Assembly: GCA_021234155.1 (NCBI GenBank)
Contig: JAJEKV010000674.1
Coordinates: 1 to 64,000, forward strand
Direction of reading: 5' to 3'
DNA from: Isoetes taiwanensis
Taxonomy: Eukaryota; Streptophyta; Lycopodiopsida; Isoetales; Isoetaceae
DNA length: 64,000 nt
The translations under genes were made by a program, and so were the position numbers. The notes under the pieces were generated by a model. It worked only from the letters and a program-made list of their open reading frames with translations, did no database searches and was not told the origin of the DNA. This document shows, in pieces, positions 410 through 14,049 of the stretch (positions are counted from its first letter, which is position 1; every line of letters starts with the position of its first letter).

Positions 410-1929
410 TAAATTGCCCACCGTTGGTGGGCTTTACATGTGATTGTTCACCTTTGTGATCGTTCCATGTGATGTCTTGGAAGTGGGCTTTGAGTGAGGA
501 GATGCGTGATTGATGGTATAAGAGTTTTGTTTGTATTAATTTAATGGTCTTAATGTGATCCAAATCAGATTAAGTAGTGTCTATTTGTATGTGGTTATTT
601 TGCATATGTTGGGCTTTTATAAAAGATAAACCCATTATGTGTTGTATTTTGAGCACAAAGCCCAAAAGATTTTAAGATGTTAAGATAGTACCACGTAAGT
701 CCATTACAGCTACATTCTAGAACCCTGGTTATAAGGTTTTAGAAAGCTTCTAAATGGAAATCCCACCTAAGCTTAAACTTGAAGCCCAAAATGAGGAGGA
801 CCTCCTGTATCATGATAAATCCACCTAACAATCAATCCAATCACCGCTCAATCGTGCCTGAGAAACCGTCTCATTTTCCTAATCCAGTTTCCTTGTGAAG
901 TAATGGTTTCCAATCATACTGCTATGAAATGCAAAATTGATTAAGACATCCAAACTCTATATGTGCCATAGTTGGGAGCAATCCACAATTGTTGTGTTGT
1001 TATGTTAGAAATATAAAATGTTAGAAATATAAAATGTATTCAACAACTTAGATGTGAAGCAAAAATTTATGGCTGGGATTAGGCTAAAAGGCAAAAACAC
1101 TGTAAGGAGCAAAATAAAACCGAAAAATGTCAAGAACACTTTATAGTTTGCAAGGTGATGCTTTGCATATTCTTGCAAAGTGCATGGATACAAAATATAA
1201 GGTATTGTTGGGATTTCTTTGGAAAAAGTTGTGCAACAACATTGTGATTCTTGAGATTGAGTTGGTGTGCATTATTAGAAGAGCAAAATATAGCTATAGG
1301 TAATCCATTATCAATTGTGTGGTGCACACGTCCTAAATTATGTAGCACGTTATGATGCATGGAGACCATTTTGTTTTATGGTGGTCTATTTTGTTTTAAC
1401 AGCTATACTACATTGGCTAATGTGTAAATGAAGAACATACCACTTTATGCTAAAGTACCACTTTATGAAATGGATTCTTTTTCTAAAAGCATTGATATGG
1501 TAATATTGATTTTGAATCTGGATCTCTTCTATCAATTGGACTTGTAGTTTCACAAATCTCAACTACTTTGTTTCCATATCTGTAGGACTGAAATGGTTTC
1601 ATTCAGTGGGGTTTAACACATCTCAACTACTTTGTTTCCATATCAGTTAGTAGAACATGCCCAACCGTAATAAAAATGATGCACAAACTTTCTATATTGC
1701 TAGACACCAACATACTTTGTACAACAATAAATTAGCCCGGTCGGATGACAAATTCTTTGTTTGTTTCATCATTAGCTAAAGAATATCTCTGGTCATCCAA
1801 TGAGAAAGGAAAAAATAGTTGTAAATTATCTCTTTGGATCGAATTTTGAAGGACTAAAGCCGGTCTGTACCATGGCACCTATGACCATTGCACCTATGGC
1901 ATTTGTGAACCGGATATGCGGATAAAAGC
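410..1929. other. Intergenic stretch without a recognisable gene
   Basis: AT-rich sequence with only short chance reading frames on both strands. Small direct repeats occur (an 18-bp stretch around AAATATAAAATGT is repeated at 1009-1035; a sentence-like repeat 'ctcaactactttgtttccat' recurs near 1558 and 1622). I see no RNA gene and no transposon ends. It may include the 3' flank of the gene ending at 409. Confidence 0.4.
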
Positions 1930-3475
1930 GCATTACGCGTCACGGCATTTGTGGACTTCAAATATCGTATTTACGGCTTGAAATTTGCAAAGCTCTCAAG
2001 TCATTGGTTACCTCTCATTTGCTTGTATAAGGTGTCTCCTCCTTCTCAAGTAAGCATGCCCTCAATGTTTTTGCGGATGCAGTGCGTGCAATCTCTTCTT
2101 GTGCATCTTCAAAACTCTGCAGAAAAGGTTAAAAATTGCTCATCTAACAAATCACGAAATTAGAAAATAACTACTACTCCTTTGTTGCAAGTTTTAGAAA
2201 ATTTTGGATAGAATTACGGCGACCGGGGATCATGTCTTGACAATCTCCTAAGGAAACAGAGCTAAACATGTGAAACCGTTAAAAGCGGTGCATCAATCAG
2301 CGGGTAACAAATATCTTGTTTTACACTTCCATTTGTTTTAACCCTTAGTTTCACCCTACAAGGAATGTCTTGACTTGATCGTGAGGTTAGCACCGCACGG
2401 AAAAGATGCATAACCTTTGAAAATAGTTCATGAAGTGCGCCTTTCTTTGTGTTGTGAACCAGTTCTTTTTACGGTATGTTTGACTCATCTTAGATTGTTC
2501 TTCTTTCGGATAAATATGCTATCCTTTTTTTTTTGCCAAGAGCGTGTGTCTTTTTGAATCGTGCCTTTTGCGAATACTTTGTGAAATCGCAAAGCTCTCC
2601 AAGTCATTAGTTACCTCTCGACTTGTATAGCGTGTCTCCTCCTCGAGTAAGCATGCCCTTAATGTTTTACGGATGCCAGTGCATTGCAATCTCTTCTTGC
2701 ACATCTTCAAAACTCTGAAAGGCTAAAAATTGCTCATTTAGCAAATCCTAAAATTAGAAAATAACTACTCCCTTTGTTGCAAGTTTTAGAAAAATTTGGA
2801 TAGAATTTCGGCGACCGGGGATCATGCCTTGACAATCTCCTAAGGAAGCAGAGCTAAACATGTGAAAGCAGATTAAGCGGTTTGCATCAATCAACGGGTA
2901 ACAAATATCTTGTTTTACACTTCCATTTGTTTTAACCCTTAGTTTCACCCTACATGGAATGTCTTGACTTGATCGTGAGGTTCAGCGCTTACGGGGAAAA
3001 AGATGCATAACCTATGAAAATAGTTCATGAACTCTGCTTTCTTTGTCTTTGTGAACCACTTCTTTTACGGTATGTTTGACTCATCTTAAATGGTTCTTCT
3101 TTCGGATAAATATGCTATCCTTTTTTTTTGCCTAGAGGCGTGTCTTAGGAATATGTGCCTTTGTGAATACTTTGTGAAATCTGCAAAGCTCTCCAAGTCA
3201 TTGGTTACCTCTCGATTGCTTGTATAAGGTGTCTCCTCCTCGAGTAAGCATGCCCTCAACGTTTTGCAGATGCCTAGTCTGTGCAATCTCTTCTTGCGCA
3301 TCTTCAAAACTCTGCAGAAAGGCTAAAAATTGCTCATCTAGCAAATCCTGAAATTAGAAAATAACTACTCCACTGTTGCAAGTTTTAGAAAAATTTGGAT
3401 AGAATTCTGACAGCTTCAGGGATCATGCCTTGACAATCTCCTAAGGAAACAGAGCTGAACATGTGAAACCGAATT
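1930..3475. repeat. Three tandem copies of a ~600-bp repeat
   Basis: The anchor AAATTAGAAAATAACTACT recurs at about 2155, 2750 and 3351, and a second anchor (GCAAAGCTCTC-AAGTCATT) recurs at about 1986, 2587 and 3182, so the period is 594 to 602 bp. Copies differ by scattered substitutions and small indels, including a variable poly-T tract (about 2525 and 3121). The third copy stops near 3470, just before the leftward gene's downstream flank begins. The short reading frames within the copies are not conserved between them, so I treat the unit as non-coding. Confidence 0.8.
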
Positions 3476-4187
3476 AAATAAAAAAAAATTACTAAATTGA
3501 GTTCCCTAACTGGCTATAGCACCTATGTACATGAGGATATGCTATCTCAGAAAATGTCAACCAAATTCCTTTACAGAAGCTTCTTCTCTTTCTTTCTTCC
3601 CGTCTACATTGCTTTAAAGCTAGACCTTTCGGCAAGCTGGACAAACTACACGGTTCAATATTCAATAAGTGATCAAATATTTCAACTGTTTGTTCAGAAG
3701 CTGCTCAAAATAATCCTCACACAAAAGAATGCAACCACCTTTACCTCTGGTGATCCCCGGCCTTTACCTGCAGTGATCCCCCAGCCTGAGACCATAGTTG
3801 CTCTTTTGTTCTATGAAGAAGAAGCAAGCTTGACGAAATATCACACATTATTCTTCTTTGAAAAGCACAATTTCATTAAAATGGGAAATTTCGTGATTCC
3901 AATTAGCAACGAAAATCTTTTTTAGTTCATTTTATGCCAATTTTTTAAGCAATTATGGCGCCATTAAGAAAAAATATGCCTCTAAAGTGTCATTTAATGG
4001 CGCCATCAAAAAGACTAACGCTGCATATAAAGAAGCTAAAGAAACGTAACATCACAAAATTAGTTAAAATTTCCAAATTCATAGATTTGCAAATCAAAAA
4101 TTTTGCCAAAACAACAGGCAAGGACTTGGAAGGGAGTCTGTTTACAAAAGTATTATTGTACAATTTAACATTACAATCACACAAAAT
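3476..4187. other. Flank of the ParB/methyltransferase-like gene, possible element end
   Basis: This lies downstream of the leftward gene ending at 4188. It contains two ATGGCGCCAT-type palindromes (about 3955-3964 and 3999-4008), the same motif that is concentrated between the two genes of the neighbouring element at 7668-8262, so it probably belongs to that element. A 142-codon open frame at 3497-3925 (non-ATG start) has no recognisable features. No terminal inverted repeat or target duplication could be fixed by eye. Confidence 0.4.
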
Positions 4188-7100
4188 TCAGGGTTCCGGA
4201 TTAGGATCAGGTTCTGCATCAGGATCAGGTTCCACATCAGGATCAGGTTCCGCATCGCCAGGGCCATGGCTAGAAGAAGCACCCATAGGATCTACACGAA
4301 GCTCTCAAGCGCCGTGGCGGTGAAATTGGGATCATTAAGCATGTCGGATCGAATTGTGCGTTCTTGATCGCATCATAGTCCACATCGGGTGGAGCTTCGA
4401 GGGCATCTCGTATTTGGTGGATCTGACTTCTTCAGCAACGGCACCTTTTCTCTGTAGGAACAGCTGCGATGATAGGATTCAGGAGGCGGTCAAGCCTATC
4501 AAGAATCCCCCTTAGGCACTCCTGCTTAACCGGGTCACTTTCGAACACAATGCAAAATCTCTTATTCAGCAATGAAGCCCGGCCAAAAGAACCACAGGAG
4601 AAGTAATCAAACACCCCTGTTCCTGGCGGTACCATTTTCTGCACGAGGTAGAAGCATGTGGCAGGCCCCAGCTGGTTTCTCATGATTAAGTCCCCTGGCA
4701 AGCCTTGCCCGGCTGTACTGAATCTGGCTGTTGCGAGCTTCCCTGCCATAGCCTCGGACTCCCCCTCTTCGTCTTCTTCGTTAGGCACGAGGCGGTGGTG
4801 GCGGTTCTTGAGGATGATCGTTGAAGGGAATTTGAGGTCAATTTCATCGAGAGGATGACTGCGGTGGCTGAATTTTTGTGGCGTACACCGGTGCATGGAC
4901 CTCCCCGAACTCGGGGGGAGCGGATTTTGTATTAGATCCTCATACATGCCAATAAAAACTACGGATGCGGAATCCGGATCATCCAACTGAGATGAAATCA
5001 AGAAGTTGTGCTCGGCCTTGCAAAGACCACTATCAGAAAGAATCAGTTTGTGGTGTTCTTTTACGGTATGTCGAAGAAATTAGAGAGAGTGGTCTTGTCC
5101 CACATTGGAGTGATGCCTCTAGTGTCGGGGCTATCAAGGATCTTTGTGCGAGATTGCAAACAAATTGCCCCTGGCGTCATTAAGTTCAACCGCGAGCGGA
5201 AGTCTTGATATCCTCCCTCTGCAAGACAAAGATTGCGTATATATTTTGCCAAAGGCGGTGGTACGTTATCGAAAACTCCTTCCTTGGTCACGCCAACTTC
5301 AACCCACTTACTATGCAGGGTGGCCATGGAAATCAGGTCGCTGTCCTCGAAGCCCGCCACGGCAGCACTTAGATCAGTGAAGGATTTAAACTTCCTCGAA
5401 AAATTATCCTTCACATATTCAAAAATCTCCTTCTTCAAGAACGATATAGATCGTAGTGTCTTTGCCCTTGTCTTGAAGAAGTGCTTACCTGTATAATCAG
5501 AGGTGACCTTCACGTAGGTATTCCCATCCAGCACCTCCTGGAACAAATCCGACAGTCTTCATAGTCCATACCCCTCATGCACCTCAGGTAGGTCTGACTG
5601 AAGTAGTCAGACTCTTTTGCTTGATTCATGGGTAATAGTCCGTCCCCTTATTATCTGTTAGCTTGCAAGATTTCCAAAAGTTCCATAGGGACACGAATAG
5701 CTGAAAAATATCCTCTGGCATGAAGACCCACTGGCTGAAATCTTTCGGGTGCTTACCACGCATGGTAACTTCAGCCAAAGCCAGATAACGCTGGAAACAA
5801 CAAGAAGTTAGTATTGAATGCAAATGATTATGAAATGGCGCCACGGCGCCATTTGGTGAGGAAATGGCCCCACGGCGCCATTTGCTAATCTAGCAGAAAA
5901 TTAAAACACGATGTACCTTGTATGGTTCTGAGCGAGATTGCCCGCGTCCCGATGGATCAGGCTTCCCGCAAAGAGCATATTGTTGCCGCAGGTGGGTATC
6001 ATTGACTTCACAACTGAGCTGCAGGCACTCTTGCTCGTCCACCGTGCCAGACAAGACTCGGCAATTCTGATACTCATAAATCTTTGCCATTTGTTCTTGG
6101 GACTTCGCTGTGCCGAGTCTTTTACATACAAGCTGAGCGGCCATAACAGAATGATTGTCATTCACTATGTAAAAGTGCATCCCCATGAGGTCATCCTCAG
6201 TTTTCCAAGGATGTAGTTTCTTTGTGAGGGGATTGAATGGAATCACGTCCGCAGGAGTGAACACCGGATGTGGATCTCTTTGAAAGGATTCCACTAAGGT
6301 CTTCACGTGCTCCATATTTCTTGGCCTAGATGTCGATTTGCGGGCCCTTGATATAGGGTGAACACGTTTATTCGTTTTATAAATGTGATGCCCGGAGGAA
6401 AAAGATGCGGTGGTCAATGATCTTACGTAGCGTGTTCTCTGCCGTCTTCTCCTCTTACGATCTTTCCACCTTAAGATTTGCGGGCACCTCGAGCAAGTCT
6501 TTGAGCTATTTTAAGGTTAGCTTCTTTGGCTCGGCTTCTTAATGGGGACCCTTTTGGCGGTGTGCCGAGAATCTTGGATATGTGGTGGGCTTGGAGGAAC
6601 TTCACCACCACTTCAGCCGAGGACTTAGGTCAGTCTCTCTCCTCTCCTTTTTTTAGGTGTTCTCTCCTTCTCGAGAGGTCTCCGCACTGTGCTTCTTCTT
6701 CTTTTCCCTTCTATTGCCTCTCGATTTCCTTTCCTCTCCGTCCTTTTCTGTCCACTTTGTTCTTCCTTCCGCCCTTTCTGTCCTTTTCCTTGTCTTTCTT
6801 GTCTTTCTTCTTCCTGTCCTTCTTTTCTTTCTTTTCCTTTTCTTTCCTTTCCTTCTTCTCTTTCTTTTCCTTCTTCTCTTTCTTTTCCTTATCAGGATCT
6901 TCGTGACCCTTTCTCTTCACTTTCCCCTTGTCCGCCGACTTTCCTTGCTCAGCTTCCTGGTCAACTTCCTCGATTAGCGGATGAGGAGTCTTTTTTGAGT
7001 GCGAGATCTGTTTGCCTCCTTAGGTTTTGTCTTCTTCACCGCTAGCGGTTTCAGCCCACGCCCGTGTCCACAATGGCGGGTAGTTTCTGTTGGGCTAATG

Positions 7101-7523
7101 CCTTGACAGCGAATGAAGCGAGTTCTTCCATTTCGTTCAAGCGATTGCGAAGAATCATAAAACCCCTCAAGATTTCTTGTGGACCAGCGATATCGGCTTC
7201 TTCAAAATTTTGTTGTATGATGTGACCCGGCCTTGCTTTCTCGCCGAACCAGCTACATTTGTGATACTAGCAGACATTAATGTGGGATCATAGAACTTCC
7301 AGTCCACATAGTAGACTATTATTCTATGTTGCACAGTGTCTTCACAGACCACCCTGATCCAATCTTCGCGCCCGCTCTTGCTAGTCAACCTCATGTTAAC
7401 CAAGATACCCGGCTGGTAAATTCCGGCTTCTGGGGCCGTCTCCTTTATCAGCAGGCAGAGCTCTCTTCTGCAGTCTCCTTTCGAGCCTGTAGAGGTGGAG
7501 GGGCTCACCCGCATTATTTCCAT
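4188..7523 (-). pseudogene. ParB-like plus DNA-methyltransferase-like protein of a mobile element (decayed)
   Basis: Leftward gene read in pieces with several frame changes. From the start near 7523: an N-terminal segment of about 118 codons (7167-7523); a Lys/Glu-rich linker of KEKK repeats (6711-6920); a ParB-like segment (5918-6417) in which an FNPL-turn is followed by HFYIVNDNHSVMAAQLV, resembling the 'DGNHRLAA' signature; then a GT-AG intron (5791-5916, phase 0). Next comes an exon ending near 5632, and a further block (5061-5546 into 4432-5001) ending in FDYFSCGSFGRASLL plus FESDP, resembling the SAM-binding motif of N6A/N4C-type DNA methyltransferases. A canonical DPPY is not visible; ILSDSGL sits where it might be. 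The tail is Asp/Pro/Glu-rich. Frameshifts (near 5065, 4360 and 4300) and an in-frame stop near 5632 show decay. It is divergent from the transposase-type gene at 8341. The domain calls come from motif resemblance only. Confidence 0.55.
5791..5916 (-). other. GT-AG intron of the ParB/methyltransferase-like gene
   Basis: The donor follows a codon for Lys (AAG|GTACAT, read on minus) and the acceptor is TTTCCAG before an Arg-Tyr-Leu exon; the phase is 0 on both sides. Both sides are open in one frame, so the intron is convincing. It contains two imperfect copies of the GGCGCC palindrome (5836-5882) that is arrayed at the element's centre. Confidence 0.6.
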
Positions 7524-8340
7524 GCACTAGTTCCTATCTGTCAGCATGATAGTCTGGTCGGATTGAAATTGTATTTTTGAACGTAGCACAGCTGCAACAA
7601 AGAAGCATCAGTAAGAAAGGCATCAATAACTCTGACTGAAACTAGTAGACAGACCAGACGACCAAGCAAATGGCGCCATGTTTGCATCTGAGTTCATTGC
7701 ATAAGCACATGGAAGCAGTTCGCATGCAGTTCGCATGCATGCGCCATTTGCAAACAACAAGACCCTAATGTAAGACAATAGGCATCAAATGGCGCGATGG
7801 CGCCATTTGCCAACAACAAGACCATTTGCCAACAACAATACCCTAATGTAAGCTAATGAACATTAAACGGCGCCATGACGCCATTTGTCAACCACAGGTC
7901 CCTAATGTAAGCTAATGGACATCAAATGGCGCGACGGCGCCATTTCTCAACAACAAGCCACTAGTTTGACTAGACATCAAATGGCGCGATGGCGCGATGG
8001 TGCAAGGTTGAAATTGTGTGAATTTGGAGCTAAATGGCGCCATGGCGCCATTTGGACGAAACGGTGCACACTTCGATCAAATGGCGCCATGGCGCGATTT
8101 GTTCCAAATTCACACCTATCACGGTGCCATGGGTGTGAATTTGGATCAAATGGCGCCATGGCGCCATTTGATCCAAGTGTTCTCTGTTTCGACCAAATGG
8201 CGCCATGGCGCCATTTAGCTCCAAAGTTAGACCAAAAGTTTGTCTTCTGTACTAAATGGCGCCACTTTTACTTGTTTATTGCTTATTTTTCGTCTAATTC
8301 ATATGTTCTAAAAAGTTTCGCCTTGCTTGATTGAAACAGG
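7524..8340. promoter_or_regulatory. Divergent intergenic region of the element with a palindromic GGCGCC array
   Basis: This region separates the leftward ParB/methyltransferase-like gene from the rightward transposase-type gene. Between 7668 and 8262 there are roughly ten copies of a palindrome built on ATGGCGCCATGGCGCCAT. Three copies are perfect 22-bp palindromes with flanking AA/TT (8032-8053, 8148-8169, 8195-8216); others are half-sites or one-base variants such as GGCGCGATGGCGC. The 'CAAC-AACAAGACCCTAATGTAAG' spacer repeats between the left copies. Location and palindromy suggest a binding region controlling both genes or serving as the element's transposition or partition site. That role is inference. 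Confidence 0.6.
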
Positions 8341-11300
8341 TTCAATTTTCCCCTGTACAACCTATTCGTCGGAAGGACAATTGTTGCCCGGGGGCATATT
8401 TTGAATAGAACCACTCTTCATGGGAAGGAAATAGATCCTTCAAATGTAGCAATTGAGGTCACGGAGTCCGTGATCCCATCGACAGAGCTTTCAGTCCCCT
8501 GCGGAGGGGCAGATAACATTGGTGAAGCAGTAGGCACATTCATTCAGTGGCCTAAGAGGGATGTAAAATAAAATGAGTGGCCCTCAAGTGAAGATACGTC
8601 TTCGAGATCCCTCAATTTGCCCTCTTCACAAGAGGATTCATCTAGTAGTCCACCATCTGTCAGTAGCCCGCCGGACATCAGTTTCACTGCTCACTGTGGT
8701 GAACCAAGCAACACAGCAACAAATGAAGAAGACGAGATAGTAGAGGAGATTGGAGGTCATGAGAATCTAGCTGCCCGTCTTGGTCTCGAGGTTGTTTAAG
8801 CCCGAAGATGAGGCGATCTACTACTCGCACAGCATCTACTAGGTTTGCCATGCTACATTCTTCACTCCTGCATTGGATCTAAATATTTAGGAGGGCTAAT
8901 ATAGTCTTTAGTGATCCTCGGGATGCTATAGGCGATGAGTTCTTAGGTGTATCAAAGGTCGGGCTTTGGTGGGTAACATAATAGATCCAACAGGGGAAAC
9001 TAAAATATCAGGTCATGTCATGCTTGTCTTTGAGAGGCCTATAGCTAATGGTTTAGTAACACAGGAGACCCATGATGTTTTGCTTCATGATGGTAGGACA
9101 GTTTCACAACATTTACAAGCTCGAAGCTGCTCTCGAGCAGGATGACTCGAAGTTGAGTGCTTGGAAGGCGATGTTGAGAAGCAATTCAAGAGGAAAAGGA
9201 AATATACATATGTGAAGAGGGTCGGGGGAGGGAACCAAAGGGGATAGCAAAGCAGGAGAGGATGTGCGCTTCCAAGTCAATCAAGAGTGCTCTAAAATCA
9301 ACATCTTTGCAAGGGCGAATGTGTCAAAAACCGGCCGAGAGCAAGTATGTGCCTTAAGAAAAGAATTTTATTCTCAATCAAGCAATGCCAGGATTACGCT
9401 TTGTTTTGATGTGTTGAGTGTAACTTATACAGGGGCGAGGCTTAAAAGTAGTGGTCTCCGGAATGGAGTGTTGTCGGTCGCATGGCGGCGTGGCTCTAGG
9501 AGTTGCTCGATCCACGTTTTATAGTTGGAGGAAGAGGTTCGAAGTTAGGTGGAAAAGCGGGCGGAGCATGGTATCTGTGCTCTAAGAAGCCTAGATGCGT
9601 GACACTAGCTACAGAAAGTGTGCTTGATACCTTCATTAGTGAGAATGCGGAGAGCATTCCACATAGAAGCAAAAAGGAAAGGATGATATAAGGGAGAATG
9701 TTCAAGAAACTTCCTTCCATCCTTAATAAGAAGAGCATACATAAGGAAGTGGGTGCCGTGGTGGAACAATTGACAGGAAAGAGTGTAACCTTGCCCTCTT
9801 TTTACAATATTTGGAAGAAAGAGTTTCCAGACGTCAGCATAGCAAAAGATACGGCATTCTCCAAGTGTAACATATGTGTAGTCATCAAGCAGAAATTGGA
9901 AAGAACAAAAGATACAAGGGAGAGGCGCAACCTTTCAATTCAACGGCGGGCACATATGTTGGAACAACGTTCCTGTAGGAGTCAATATTGGCATTGCGTG
10001 CATTATCACATCGTTCACCAGAAAGTCACCTTTGCATAATACATGATAAGATGGATCAGGTCAAAACACTCACACCAAGAAGTCACCATCTCGCAAAATC
10101 TGTTTGGAGAGGAGATCGCTTGAAGAGCAGCTTGACAGGAGCATTGACACATGGTCATGGTTGACGGGCTTATGGCCATTTCTCTCTTGATCTTTGGAAG
10201 GATGACTCAAACTTTCATGTTGGATCACTCTCTAGGATCCTACACTATCTTGAGTTGCCGGAAGAAGACAAGTGCGGTGATCTGTGTGGAAGTAGAACTA
10301 CAGATTGCAAATTGATGCAAGCCCTAAAAAGATACTCGACCCCGCAAGCATAAGATAGCGCAGACACAAGAGAAGATGCCTTCATCTTCTACTGCCAACT
10401 TAGAAGGCTTCAATCCTCTTCCTCGAAATCTCTACTTACAGTTGGATAATGCATCGGGTCAAAATAAAAATAGACATGTGTTCTCCTACCTCTCTTATTT
10501 GACATGGCTTAAGGTATTCGATGAGATTCAGGTTGGCTTCATGATGGTTGGGCATACTCATGACGATATTGATGCATTGTTTGGGAACTTTTCGACGTTA
10601 ATGAGTTCATCGGATGCTCTAACTTTGCACGAGTTGCTTTACTTGTTTAGCAAGTGCAATGCAAAGTCTCTGTTCCATATTTTGTGGATGAAGTTCAGAT
10701 TGGAAAGGCTTTGTCAAGGGATATATCCCCGATAAAGGCCAACGTCTAACAAAGCCATACCGACCCATTGCTATTCGATTTAAAATGGATGGGAAATGGC
10801 CCATTATGCAATATAAGATGCGGCCAACCCATAAAGAGTGGATTCCAGAAAAAGGAATAAGAATGTGGAAGGAGGATGAAAATGGCGAGCCAACGTTACC
10901 AACAAGGGGTGCCTAAAAATATCCCTCCAAGGAAGACATTGAAAGATCTCCCCGGGCCCGGCGACAAAGATCGCCAGTACATAGCATTATGGAATTCTTA
11001 CGCAAAAATCAAGAAGATAGTGTGTTTGCAACGACAAGAAGCAACTATGGATTCTTGGAGCGAGATTCTTTTGTGTTTGGAAGATGTATCTCCGTGATCG
11101 ACCTCAAAATGACAACTTTTGGTTTGCGTACAAGGCAAGAACCTCTACAAGCCGCATTTACTCCAGAGGTCGATGAAGCCGCTGTGCTTGTAAGACCTTT
11201 GCCTACGTATTGTGGGCCAGCAGATGGGCGTCTAGTGTTGCCTATGGATGAGTTTGATCCTCATGCACATGTTACGAAAGGTATGTTCGTTTTAGTCCGA

Positions 11301-11614
11301 CACGAGACGATGAAACTCCAACGTGGTTGGGCTTTTTACGTAAGAAGATGCCATCCTAGATCGAGTCTACCAATTATGGTCATATTTATGTATCATGGTG
11401 GATGCCTGTTGGTCGTGACTATACAGGTTGCTTAACTAAACGTTGGCGACCCAATCCATCAGATCCATCAAGGTATGAGAAGTTAGATGCCATACATTAT
11501 GCATGGGATGCAAATGGCAAAAGACCGAAGACTGTTCAGATTCCAAAATACATTGTTGACATGTGGGGGGACATAGCATTAGCTAAAAGCTCTCAATCTC
11601 AGTCATGTTCTTGA
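8341..11614 (+). pseudogene. DUF8039/DUF7869-like transposase-type protein of the same mobile element (decayed)
   Basis: Rightward gene read in fragments. 8341-8802 is one frame with a single TAA at 8569-8571. It carries GRTIVARGHIL, LHGKEI and GEAVGTFIQWP, matching the DUF8039-type module of plant transposon proteins as I remember it. More coding follows at about 8930-9250 and 9260-9524. 9530-10030 holds SFYNIWKKEFPDV, a C-x-x-C pair (KCNIC) and a coiled helix with RERRNL. About 10040-10100 reads HDKMDQVKT. 10400-10620 reads LYLQLDNASGQNKN and VGHTHDDIDALFGNFS. The last three are hallmarks of the DUF7869 family, whose conserved acidic residues look like a nuclease or integrase core. The C-terminal part (10745-11614) ends after PKTVQIPKYIVDMWGD. 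At least five frame changes and some stops show inactivation. Catalytic function is inferred, and the family names are from memory. Confidence 0.6.
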
Positions 11615-11994: not shown

Positions 11995-12480
11995 CTTTTA
12001 CCTTGTTTTCACTTCTCACGTTTCACCTTCAGCTACTTGATCTTGATCCTTGCTTCTTGCTCCTTCATCTTCCTTGTTCCTTGATCTTCTTGCTACTTGA
12101 TCTTCCTTGTTCCTTGATCTTCTTGCTACTTGATCTTCCTTGTTCATTGCTTCTTGCTACTTGATCTTGATCCTTGTTCCTTGCTACTTCATTCCCGTGC
12201 TCCTTGCTACTTGATCTTGTTCCTTGCTCTTGATCTTGCTACTTGATCTTGTTCCTTGCTACTTGATCTTGATCCTTGCTTCTTGCTCCTTGATCTTCCT
12301 TGTTCCTTGATCTTCTTGCTACTTGATCTACCTTGTTCATTGCATCTTGCTACTTGATCTTGATCCTTGTTCCTTGCTACTTCATTTCCGTGCTCCCTGC
12401 TACTTGATCTTGTTGCTTGCTCTTGAACTTGCTACTTGCTCGCTCCCGTGTTCCTTGCTCCGTCGGTGATCCTTGCTTGC
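11995..12480. repeat. Compound pyrimidine-rich minisatellite (CTTGATC / CTTGTTCC / TTGCTAC words)
   Basis: A long low-complexity tract made of short words (TTGCTACTTGATCTTGAT, CCTTGTTCCTTG, TTCTTGC) in varying order; a block of ~250 bp is itself duplicated (compare 12045-12210 with 12260-12400). Open frames over it are repeat artefacts. Confidence 0.75.
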
Positions 12481-13050
12481 TTTTGCAAATGATTGGACCC
12501 AATCCTCCCCCGGGCTACTCGCAGAAGGCCTGCAAGCATGCCCCAGGCATTCTGTGCGGCCTGGAATGGATGAGCTATGGGACCATTTCTTGGAGTGGAG
12601 GTTGCGCCACAGTCCCACCAAGGAGCTTACAATGGAGTTGATCAACTTCATTCTGGAGCGATTTGATTGTGGTCATGGAGACTTGCAATGAGGGGAATTC
12701 TTGAACCCCCTCCTTATCTGGACGAGATGCTACAGCAATTGAGGCCTCTTCTTCGTGCTGGATATTTAGCACACTCTCTGGATGCATACATATCAGAGTT
12801 CATTCATGAAATTAACCGGGGACAGATGTATGGCCTTATTATGGTGTACTACAACGAGTACAACGGTTTTGTGGAGTTGGGTCCGCTCTTCTTCCGTGAG
12901 TATCATTCTGTGGAATTACTTTTTCTAATGACTAGGTACCCCATATGGTGGGAAGAATCAGGCTGGGAGGAGCGTGAGCTCTTGACTCCTAACCCAGATG
13001 CGTGGGTTAGACCTCGCAGGCCAAGGGAAAGGGGAAGGGGAAGGGGTTAG
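12473..13050 (+). pseudogene. Unrecognised ORF, probably element-borne, with one frame change
   Basis: A frame with MDELWDHFLEWRLRH and an amphipathic continuation (12563-12690) leads, after a one-base frame change near 12685, into a 120-codon frame ending with a TAG at 13048-13050 and an Arg/Gly-rich tail (PRRPRERGRGRG). Together it is about 190 residues with acidic, aromatic-rich helices. I recognise no domain. It lies downstream and in the same orientation as the transposase-type gene and could be a third gene of that element or a separate host fragment. Confidence 0.35.
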
Positions 13051-13139: not shown

Positions 13140-13315
13140 ATGTTCTCTAAATATTCATGTATGTATGATAAACGGGTACTGCACGTGTATACAACCCCTG
13201 CATAAGGTCTATGATACAGGGTACTGTACACGTGTATACAACCCCTGCATAAGGTCTATGATACATCGTACTGTACACGTGTATACAACCCCTGCATAAG
13301 GTCTATACAACCCCC
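13140..13315. repeat. Three tandem copies of a ~52-bp unit
   Basis: The unit contains CGTGTATACAACCCCTGCAT and AAGGTCTATGATAC, repeated at about 13183, 13228 and 13278, the last copy being truncated into 'CTATACAACCCCCATAA'. Function unknown; it could be a subterminal repeat of the element to the left. Confidence 0.7.
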
Positions 13316-14049
13316 ATAATAAAAAAATTCGAGTTTACTAAAAATTTTCCCATTATAATGAAATTGTGCTTTGAAGACCGTTTCCTTTCTGTCCAATCAT
13401 TTGGATGCATCGTGGAATAGCTCCCCCCGTTAACAACAGTATTTTGGCAGGCAGGTATGGCAGCTGCTGCCTCCTCCAGTTCTCGCTCCTCCGATTCTCA
13501 TCCTCGATCAAGCACACTAAATTTTCGCTCCTCCGATCCTCATCCTCGATCAAGCACCCTAAATTTGCCTGCCTTCCTTTTCCTTGAAATCGGCTATTCT
13601 TAGGTTTACGTGCCTTTTTTTTTAATATTTTTTGGACGTCACTTTTTTAGCCTTTTTTCCGCCACTTTTTAGCCTTAAGATTGCATCATGAAATCTCAGC
13701 TGTCGAAATTAGGGCGTGGTCCATTACTTGCACTAAAATATTATAATATAAAGATTTCCAGTTTGATACCCATATTATGATAGATTGCCTTATGTTTGGC
13801 TTATTCAAAGCCTATAAATTGGAATACCGTTGGATCACTGTATTCACCCTTCCAGCTAGACTCATTAGTAAAGGTTTACGAGGCCTGGCTGATGCAATAC
13901 CTAAAGCCGATATGAGGAGACTTGAGAACATTAATGTTCTATTACTTGGAAAGGTCAACCCATACTGGATTGTCGGATCTGTGTATGAGTTCATGTTAAC
14001 TCTTCCCAATAAAATTACAAGCTTATTTACTGTTGATGTCTCTAAGTGA
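13316..14049. other. No firm gene; one 90-codon ORF of unknown origin
   Basis: A short direct repeat (TTCTCGCTCCTCCGAT-type, 13480 and 13524) and poly-T tracts occur. The frame 13777-14049 (+), which reads LENINVLLLGKVNPYWIVG in its middle, ends exactly where gypsy-like coding begins. It might be degraded retrotransposon sequence, but I do not recognise it. Confidence 0.3.

Follow-up and report, generated by a model that had tools for sequence, protein, structure and literature searches.

A DUF7869 gene paired with a divergent ParB-methyltransferase-family gene across four transposon lineages with palindrome arrays in Isoetes taiwanensis

Why would a plant DNA transposon carry, opposite its transposase-like gene, a second gene of ParB-methyltransferase character, and what would the product of that gene recognise? 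The question is raised by a 64,000-nucleotide stretch of the Isoetes taiwanensis genome (assembly GCA_021234155.1, contig JAJEKV010000674.1, positions 1 to 64,000 of the forward strand; hereafter the window). Two decayed genes diverge here from a palindrome-rich centre: a transposase-like gene with a DUF7869 core on the + strand (the right gene), and on the − strand a gene (the left gene) with a ParB-like first exon (the ParB exon) and a methyltransferase-like second exon. A preliminary description of the locus had proposed this layout from the letters of the DNA, and it is borne out, as every peptide it named was found in place and stops were counted in both genes. The best explanation of the locus, to which we assign a probability of roughly 60%, is that the left protein would recognise the palindromes carried by its own element, and so act only on its own copies.

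The two genes travel together across the genome. Counting was done on lists of the best-scored places only, comprising 150 of the 177 reported matches for the ParB exon (from 3,650 candidates), 150 of 151 for the right gene (from 7,764), 85 of 92 for left-gene exon 2 (from 4,353; the seven matches left out were fragments of places already entered) and 150 of 150 for the Pfam profile N6_N4_Mtase (from 1,444); for a further list, 150 of 150 were entered (from 9,910 first-look candidates). A partner missing from these lists does not show absence. A right-gene place lay within 10 kb of 50 of the 150 left-gene places. Of these close pairs, 47 were divergent, against a chance expectation of 0.27, the right gene lying upstream and usually about 6 kb away; two were on the same strand and one was opposite but downstream. 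Exon 2 behaved likewise, with a right-gene place at no more than 10 kb from 24 of its 85 listed places (23/24 divergent), and a listed exon 2 was present within 10 kb of 55 of the 150 ParB-exon places, on the same strand in 54. The pairing of a DUF7869 gene with an adjacent, divergent ParB-methyltransferase-family gene, as proposed in the preliminary description, is therefore real.

The pairing extends beyond the lineage found in the window, which we call type 1. The genome search with N6_N4_Mtase recovered a sister lineage, type 2; all 150 listed places scored above the cut-off, many of them without stops in the match. As an observation in its own right, these matches mean that this plant genome is rich in N4/N6 methyltransferase genes. 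No listed window-type left gene was found at 13 kb or less from any of the 150. A listed top DUF7869 place lies within 13 kb (a distance picked after inspecting the list) of 24, and 22 of these 24 are divergent, against 0.35 by chance at that distance; within 10 kb, 17 of 18 type-2 pairs are divergent. The type-2 gene carries the ParB-like segment HYVLGGNHSFKARRQL as well as VVADLPYGF and VLDAFSGSGTT. When four more DUF7869 loci were chosen from the match lists without a known partner, a divergent ParB-methyltransferase gene was present in 4/4. Two further lineages were named type 2b (L044 and L045) and type 1b (L046 and L047). Between lineages, the right gene is about 85% identical in types 1 and 1b (DUF7869 stretch), 51–52% in types 2 and 2b, and 24–32% in types 1 and 2b (matched stretches). 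One genome thus holds four lineages of the paired element, each with palindrome arrays between its genes.

Comparison with three other copies in the same genome set the ends of the window element. The preliminary description was right that the locus is a mobile element, but the unit is not 4188-11614: homology to the other copies begins and ends exactly at 3863 and 13371, which delimits a single DNA transposon of 9,509 bp. Full relatives (n = 3) measure 11.6–12.1 kb, and about 1.4 kb of their sequence is missing from the window copy at a deletion join (7997..7998; window position 7997 resumes at 11150, 10457 and 10020 of the three other copies), a central loss that falls between its palindromes. 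The terminal inverted repeats (TIRs) measure about 29 bp and start with AAGCACAATTTCATTA in window-type elements; here the left TIR is AAGCACAATTTCATTAAAATGGGAAATTT (3863..3891, + strand) and the right TIR occupies 13343..13371 (− strand), with 30-base arms that are 93% complementary. Exact 4-bp target-site duplications (TSDs) flank 4/4 window-type copies, namely TGAA in the window (3859..3862 and 13372..13375), CAAT, GATT and TTTA, and two type-2 elements, TTAA and GTTT, when their terminal repeat is taken as starting AACA. Sola transposons generate 4-bp TSDs, and the same trait was found in all six Isoetes elements with both ends read. The window element is a decayed cut-and-paste-type DNA transposon.

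The right gene (8335..11614, + strand) was delimited from open frames, Pfam and nucleotide matches to other copies. The frame at 10328-10735 matches Pfam DUF7869 (PF25273; E = 1.1e-29, 103.9 bits against a cut-off of 26) over a core at 10412..10663, which contains the LQLDN and VGHTHDDID blocks previously attributed to this family; the right-gene matches in the window contain two to four stops, all outside this frame. A DUF8039-like front, also attributed to this gene, was not recovered, with no credible Pfam family there at E ≤ 5 in a library copy that may not include DUF8039. The DUF7869 protein is likely the transposase.

The structure of the left gene was read with the help of an intact-looking copy, L005, which has two long exons. 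In the window, tblastn with L005 places exon 1 at 5917..7523 (− strand), comprising an N-terminal region, a Lys/Glu-rich tract and the ParB-like domain; the ParB-like segment HFYIVNDNHSVMAAQ lies in an open stretch at 5893..6510 (frame 5890-6510), identified from the open frame and profile links. A predicted GT..AG intron (5791..5916, − strand), whose splicing is suggested by the sequence and by the L005 frames on either side, holds two palindrome sites (5833 and 5862). Exon 2 (4375..5790, − strand), placed by tblastn and motif alignment, is a decayed region resembling beta-class N4/N6 methyltransferases, with the place of motif IV at 5115-5126, reading DTRG, and that of motif I, GVFDYFSCGSFGRAS, at 4573-4617; the peptide FDYFSCGSFGRA, resembling an S-adenosylmethionine-binding motif, sits in the − frame 4432-5079. 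Two overlapping matches to exon 1, in shifted frames, contain 11 and 10 stops, and those to exon 2 contain four and one.

The family membership of the left protein was assessed by profile comparison with hhalign, using the best score among 40 column shuffles as a control. The phage ParB profile was built from 8 of 30 listed matches out of 500 records, and the prokaryotic methyltransferase profile from 21 sequences (18 of 88 open frames after removal of similar ones, plus three phage fusions); three unrelated profile pairings all scored below their own shuffle maxima. The type-2 methyltransferase matches Pfam N6_N4_Mtase (2.1e-17) and the prokaryotic profile (E = 1.5e-20, score 153.7 vs. a shuffle best of 20.7), and type-2 ParB reaches phage ParB (E = 0.002, 25.3 vs. 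16.0) and a PHROG ParB-like profile (E = 0.019). The window lineage connects to these through its relatives: type-1 ParB aligns with type-2 ParB (E = 7.9e-6, 41.4 vs. 25.8), and when types 1 and 1b are combined, their ParB reaches phage ParB (E = 0.013, 21.9 vs. 16.4) and their methyltransferase region reaches both types 2 and 2b (E = 0.00027, 38.5 vs. 35.9) and the prokaryotic enzymes (E = 0.0059, 31.0 vs. 19.7, with 0/40 shuffles attaining this score). The profiles therefore reach both families that had been suggested for the left gene, the window lineage doing so only with sister lineages added; its assignment is weak when the lineage is taken by itself and improves when the sister elements serve as a bridge. 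N4/N6 methyltransferase-family membership is strong for the sister lineage and modest for the window type, and ParB-like membership of the window type, by the chain through the sister lineages, is likewise modest. Since the window lineage alone is too diverged, Pfam is silent on its left gene: single left-gene pieces gave nothing credible in Pfam and only a methyltransferase hint in PHROGs (E = 0.44). Searched against phages with tblastn, the window-type ParB and methyltransferase exons and the type-2 ParB exon had no match, and the type-2 methyltransferase exon found 729 records (E ≤ 1e-3), none of which reached 60% identity.

The lineages differ at the catalytic motif. The place of D-P-P-Y reads DTRG, DTRS, DTRT, NTRG, DTKG, DMRS or DLRA in 16/16 readable type-1 rows (three further rows end before the motif, and L025 is out of frame there) and DARQ in the sole readable type-1b row, whereas it reads D[LI]PY in all 10 rows used for types 2 and 2b; beyond these rows, the type-2 loci L038 and L043 read DLPY and L042 is broken at the motif. 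Motif I is FSGSGTT in 11 of 12 type-2 rows and FFGSGTT in the remaining one, FSGSGTT in L044 (2b; L045 is broken there), FSGGAFT in L046 (1b) and mostly FSCGSFG in type 1. Because the D-P-P-Y place is replaced in every readable row, the window version is probably non-catalytic, while the methyltransferases of the sister lineages look catalytic from their motifs. The suggestion that this element brings its own DNA methyltransferase is, as phrased, unsupported for the lineage in which it was made. The gene is constrained: with pairs kept at a synonymous rate (dS) of 0.05–1.5 and at least 60 codons, the median ratio of nonsynonymous to synonymous rates (dN/dS) is 0.14 for the type-1 ParB exon (35 pairs, range 0.08–0.48), 0.37 for the type-1 methyltransferase exon (55 pairs, range 0.24–0.63), and 0.17, 0.07 and 0.09 for type-2 exons (3, 3 and 2 pairs).

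What the left protein might recognise is suggested by the palindromes. The type-1 palindrome, AAATGGCGCCATGGCGCCATTT, occurs at nine sites with up to three mismatches in the window element and at none in five dinucleotide-based shuffles; genome-wide, exact 22-mers number 957, against 0 for the reversed control. Seven of the window sites lie between the gene starts (7787..8216; sites at 7787, 7865, 7924, 8032, 8079, 8148 and 8195, within three mismatches). Full type-1 copies (n = 3) have two arrays between the genes, one adjoining the first open frame of each gene, and one to three sites in the left-gene intron. The window copy has two shorter ATGGCGCCAT sites towards its left end and c1028 has one, and the fetched flanks of the type-1 copies contain no ATGGCGCCAT 10-mer. 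Three array sites taken from beyond the match lists comprise two element copies with the left gene (L048 and L049) and L050, a short derivative with element ends; L049 and L050 each have a single terminus located by pattern. In L050 (G000:C14:73600-81600, about 1546-4728), type-1 ends and palindromes are present, the left gene and the DUF7869 stretch find no match, and the sole right-gene piece is 162 bases near its start, so this is likely a non-autonomous copy.

Each sister lineage has arrays between its genes as well, built from other palindromes: AAATGGCGCAGCTGCGCCATTT in type 1b, AAAGTGTATTCCGGAATACACTTT in type 2 (spaced 41–42 bp in c976) and GGTATGAATTCATACC in type 2b. In L047, c1057 and L045, arrays also lie directly downstream of the ParB exon, at the expected place of the intron. 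When sites were grouped as 1/1b, 2 and 2b (up to three mismatches), 12 of 13 elements or loci were free of the sites of other groups, and approximate dinucleotide shuffles, five per element or locus, gave 0 sites; owing to their common half-sites, types 1 and 1b overlap. The right genes fall into the same groups as the palindromes (1/1b, 2, 2b).

The copies also carry a record of decay. In pairwise comparison, the element bodies of c1028, c950 and c1034 differ at 12–15% per CpG against 2–5% for other C; host cytosine methylation, and with it something to escape, is therefore likely. Among the same copies, CpG to TpG/CpA change runs at about three to six times other C to T change, a sign of past cytosine methylation. 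At 69 type-1 palindrome sites, compared for signs of CpG protection, C-to-T or G-to-A change affects 4 of 138 CpGs vs. the 12–15% in the bodies; as sites were selected by similarity to the consensus and the two rates were measured differently, no protection is concluded from this.

We infer that it is the left protein, rather than the transposase or a host protein, that binds the palindromes and acts there, and we regard it as the best candidate for their reader. Such a protein would combine a bacterial or phage-type ParB domain with a beta-class N4-cytosine/N6-adenine DNA methyltransferase domain, and by recognising the palindromes of its own element it would act on its own copies only. In the sister lineages with an intact-looking methyltransferase, it may methylate the element at these sites, producing N6-methyladenine (6mA) or N4-methylcytosine (4mC). 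In the window lineage, where catalysis would have been lost, it may survive as a binder, holding the promoters of the element in an active state or protecting them against silencing by the host, and could then work like the VANC anti-silencing proteins.

Several points weigh against this explanation. In bacterial ParB, parS is usually read by a part other than ParB_N, and scanning the genome with the Pfam profile ParB_N gave no match at E ≤ 0.5. Taken alone, the type-1 profile misses phage ParB (E = 0.48, score 11.6, under the shuffle maximum), and the type-1 methyltransferase profile stays at shuffle level (20.5 vs. 20.0 against the prokaryotic profile and 23.0 vs. 22.8 against the sister profile). 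Several hhalign probabilities are low in spite of the E-values, both for the ParB links to phage (13.8% for type 2, 3.4% for types 1 and 1b) and for the methyltransferase links with type 1b added (6.2% and 41.5%). Structure adds little, as a sequence search of the PDB found no credible relative, both AlphaFold models are too poor for a thorough fold search (confidence, pLDDT, of 38 and 52), and the single structure comparison, made with the better model, was weak, with a best Z of 7.1 and beta-class methyltransferases at Z 5–6 among unrelated folds. L050, finally, carries two sites close to the 2b palindrome in addition to those of type 1.

A different reader of the palindromes is unlikely, in our judgement, but deserves weight. 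The arrays could be bound by the transposase or by a host transcription factor, with another task for the left protein, for instance a DNA mark that times transposition. An array adjoins the right-gene start in full type-1 copies too, and the DUF7869 protein itself differs between lineages, with the 24–32% identity of types 1 and 2b, both of which suit such a reader. However, the arrays are central and intronic rather than beside the TIRs, save for the few shorter sites of the window copy and c1028, and between types 1 and 1b the DUF7869 stretch remains about 85% identical although the left gene (45–52% identity in L046) and the palindrome core have changed. We consider it improbable that the left gene acts within the transposition complex, as a ParB-type clamp bridging copies or ends with the methyltransferase domain a relic or scaffold: arrays are absent from the element ends, and the sister lineages retain their methyltransferase motifs with low dN/dS (in few pairs), even if the stronger constraint on the window-lineage ParB exon than on its methyltransferase exon would agree with a clamp. 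That the left gene is a passenger, captured once and carried without use to the element, is very hard to credit, since it persists in four diverged lineages and its dN/dS, measured in types 1 and 2, stays below 1, despite the many copies broken by stops.

Recognition of its own palindromes by the left protein admits a broader formulation, which we advance tentatively and would rate somewhat short of even odds. The left proteins may be self-recognition factors, each reading its own palindrome and placing 4mC or 6mA on no element but its own, with protein and site specificity changing together and the writer of one lineage now a non-catalytic binder. If true, a vascular plant would naturally possess several base-marking pairs, orthogonal and addressed by sequence. 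With four lineages in one plant genome, each in many copies and with a candidate site for binding, binding partners become testable, as does the question of whether plants carry transposon-written 4mC or 6mA, and the lineage that lost the catalytic motif and kept the gene offers a natural test of binding against methylation.

Other features of the region stand apart from these subjects. An open stretch at 12566..13008 (+ strand), common to full copies and without a family match, was considered as a third gene at the right end and dropped, with a median dN/dS of 0.90 (three pairs) and three to four stops in c1034; it is probably not a conserved gene. A low-complexity array of CTTGATC/CTTGCTAC type lies within the element at 12032-12441 and is common to other copies, and a 47-bp tandem repeat (13182..13322) lies immediately inside the right end. 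Just outside the element, a unit of about 597 bp is repeated three times in tandem (1986-3482; 61–98% alike over compared stretches). An open frame that by eye resembles pentatricopeptide repeats adjoins a type-2 element (L029, 132-761), and an Rfam scan of the window gave no match.

The preliminary description knew of no described plant transposon with this pair; the combination has, however, been published from a brown alga in a paper that also cites cases from green and red algae (PMC12477816). The Ectocarpus element Sola1-1_Ec32 is a giant DNA transposon in which a gene for a ParB-like plus N4/N6 DNA methyltransferase protein runs on the other strand from the transposase, and its authors suggest that ParB-methyltransferase proteins might attach to, and mark, the sequence of the transposon that encodes them (PMC12477816). 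The Isoetes elements resemble it in the left gene and in layout; unlike them it spans 21.5 kb, and the passages on it say nothing of palindrome arrays or of a lineage whose catalysis was lost. Two Sola papers (PMC10294476; PMC4455052) supplied no trait for comparison with the Isoetes elements. The ParB-methyltransferase proteins of green and red algal transposons (Iyer 2011; Petroll 2025, as cited in PMC12477816) have the same domain pair in other hosts. The accounts of such transposons consulted so far are short notes on algae with no named binding site, and a literature search, with most subscription papers outside its reach, found no land plant with the pair, no palindrome arrays and no non-catalytic lineage.

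Other systems share single traits. In the Arabidopsis VANDAL elements, short motifs are arrayed outside the coding sequence, among other places in introns and upstream of VANA; the density of the motif is important, the element-encoded VANC protein reads the motif and lifts silencing, and from one related element to the next, protein and motif change in concert (PMC5735166). Family-specific motif arrays in non-coding parts are found in the Isoetes elements too, a likeness of layout, whereas the VANDAL motifs have nine bases in one orientation and are not palindromes, and the passages on VANC mention no ParB or methyltransferase domain (PMC5735166). Fungal DNA transposons carry TET/JBP dioxygenase genes thought to counter silencing and so likewise pair a DNA transposon with a DNA-modifying enzyme, although the enzyme is unrelated and the word ParB does not occur in the text (PMC12730594). 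Retrotransposons of dinoflagellates and charophytes are reported to bring their own DNA methyltransferase (DNMT), there a C5-cytosine enzyme in a retrotransposon (PMC5890265). Phage and archaeal-virus fusions, such as HCTV-2 gp11, annotated as having "ParB-like nuclease and AdoMet-MTase domains", contain the same domain pair, and phage and prokaryote profiles match the plant domains; these fusions come without a transposase, and their ParB similarity is at the profile level only. The kind of element described here is thus already in print from algae, and what is new is a set of four lineages with intergenic palindrome arrays that differ between lineages.

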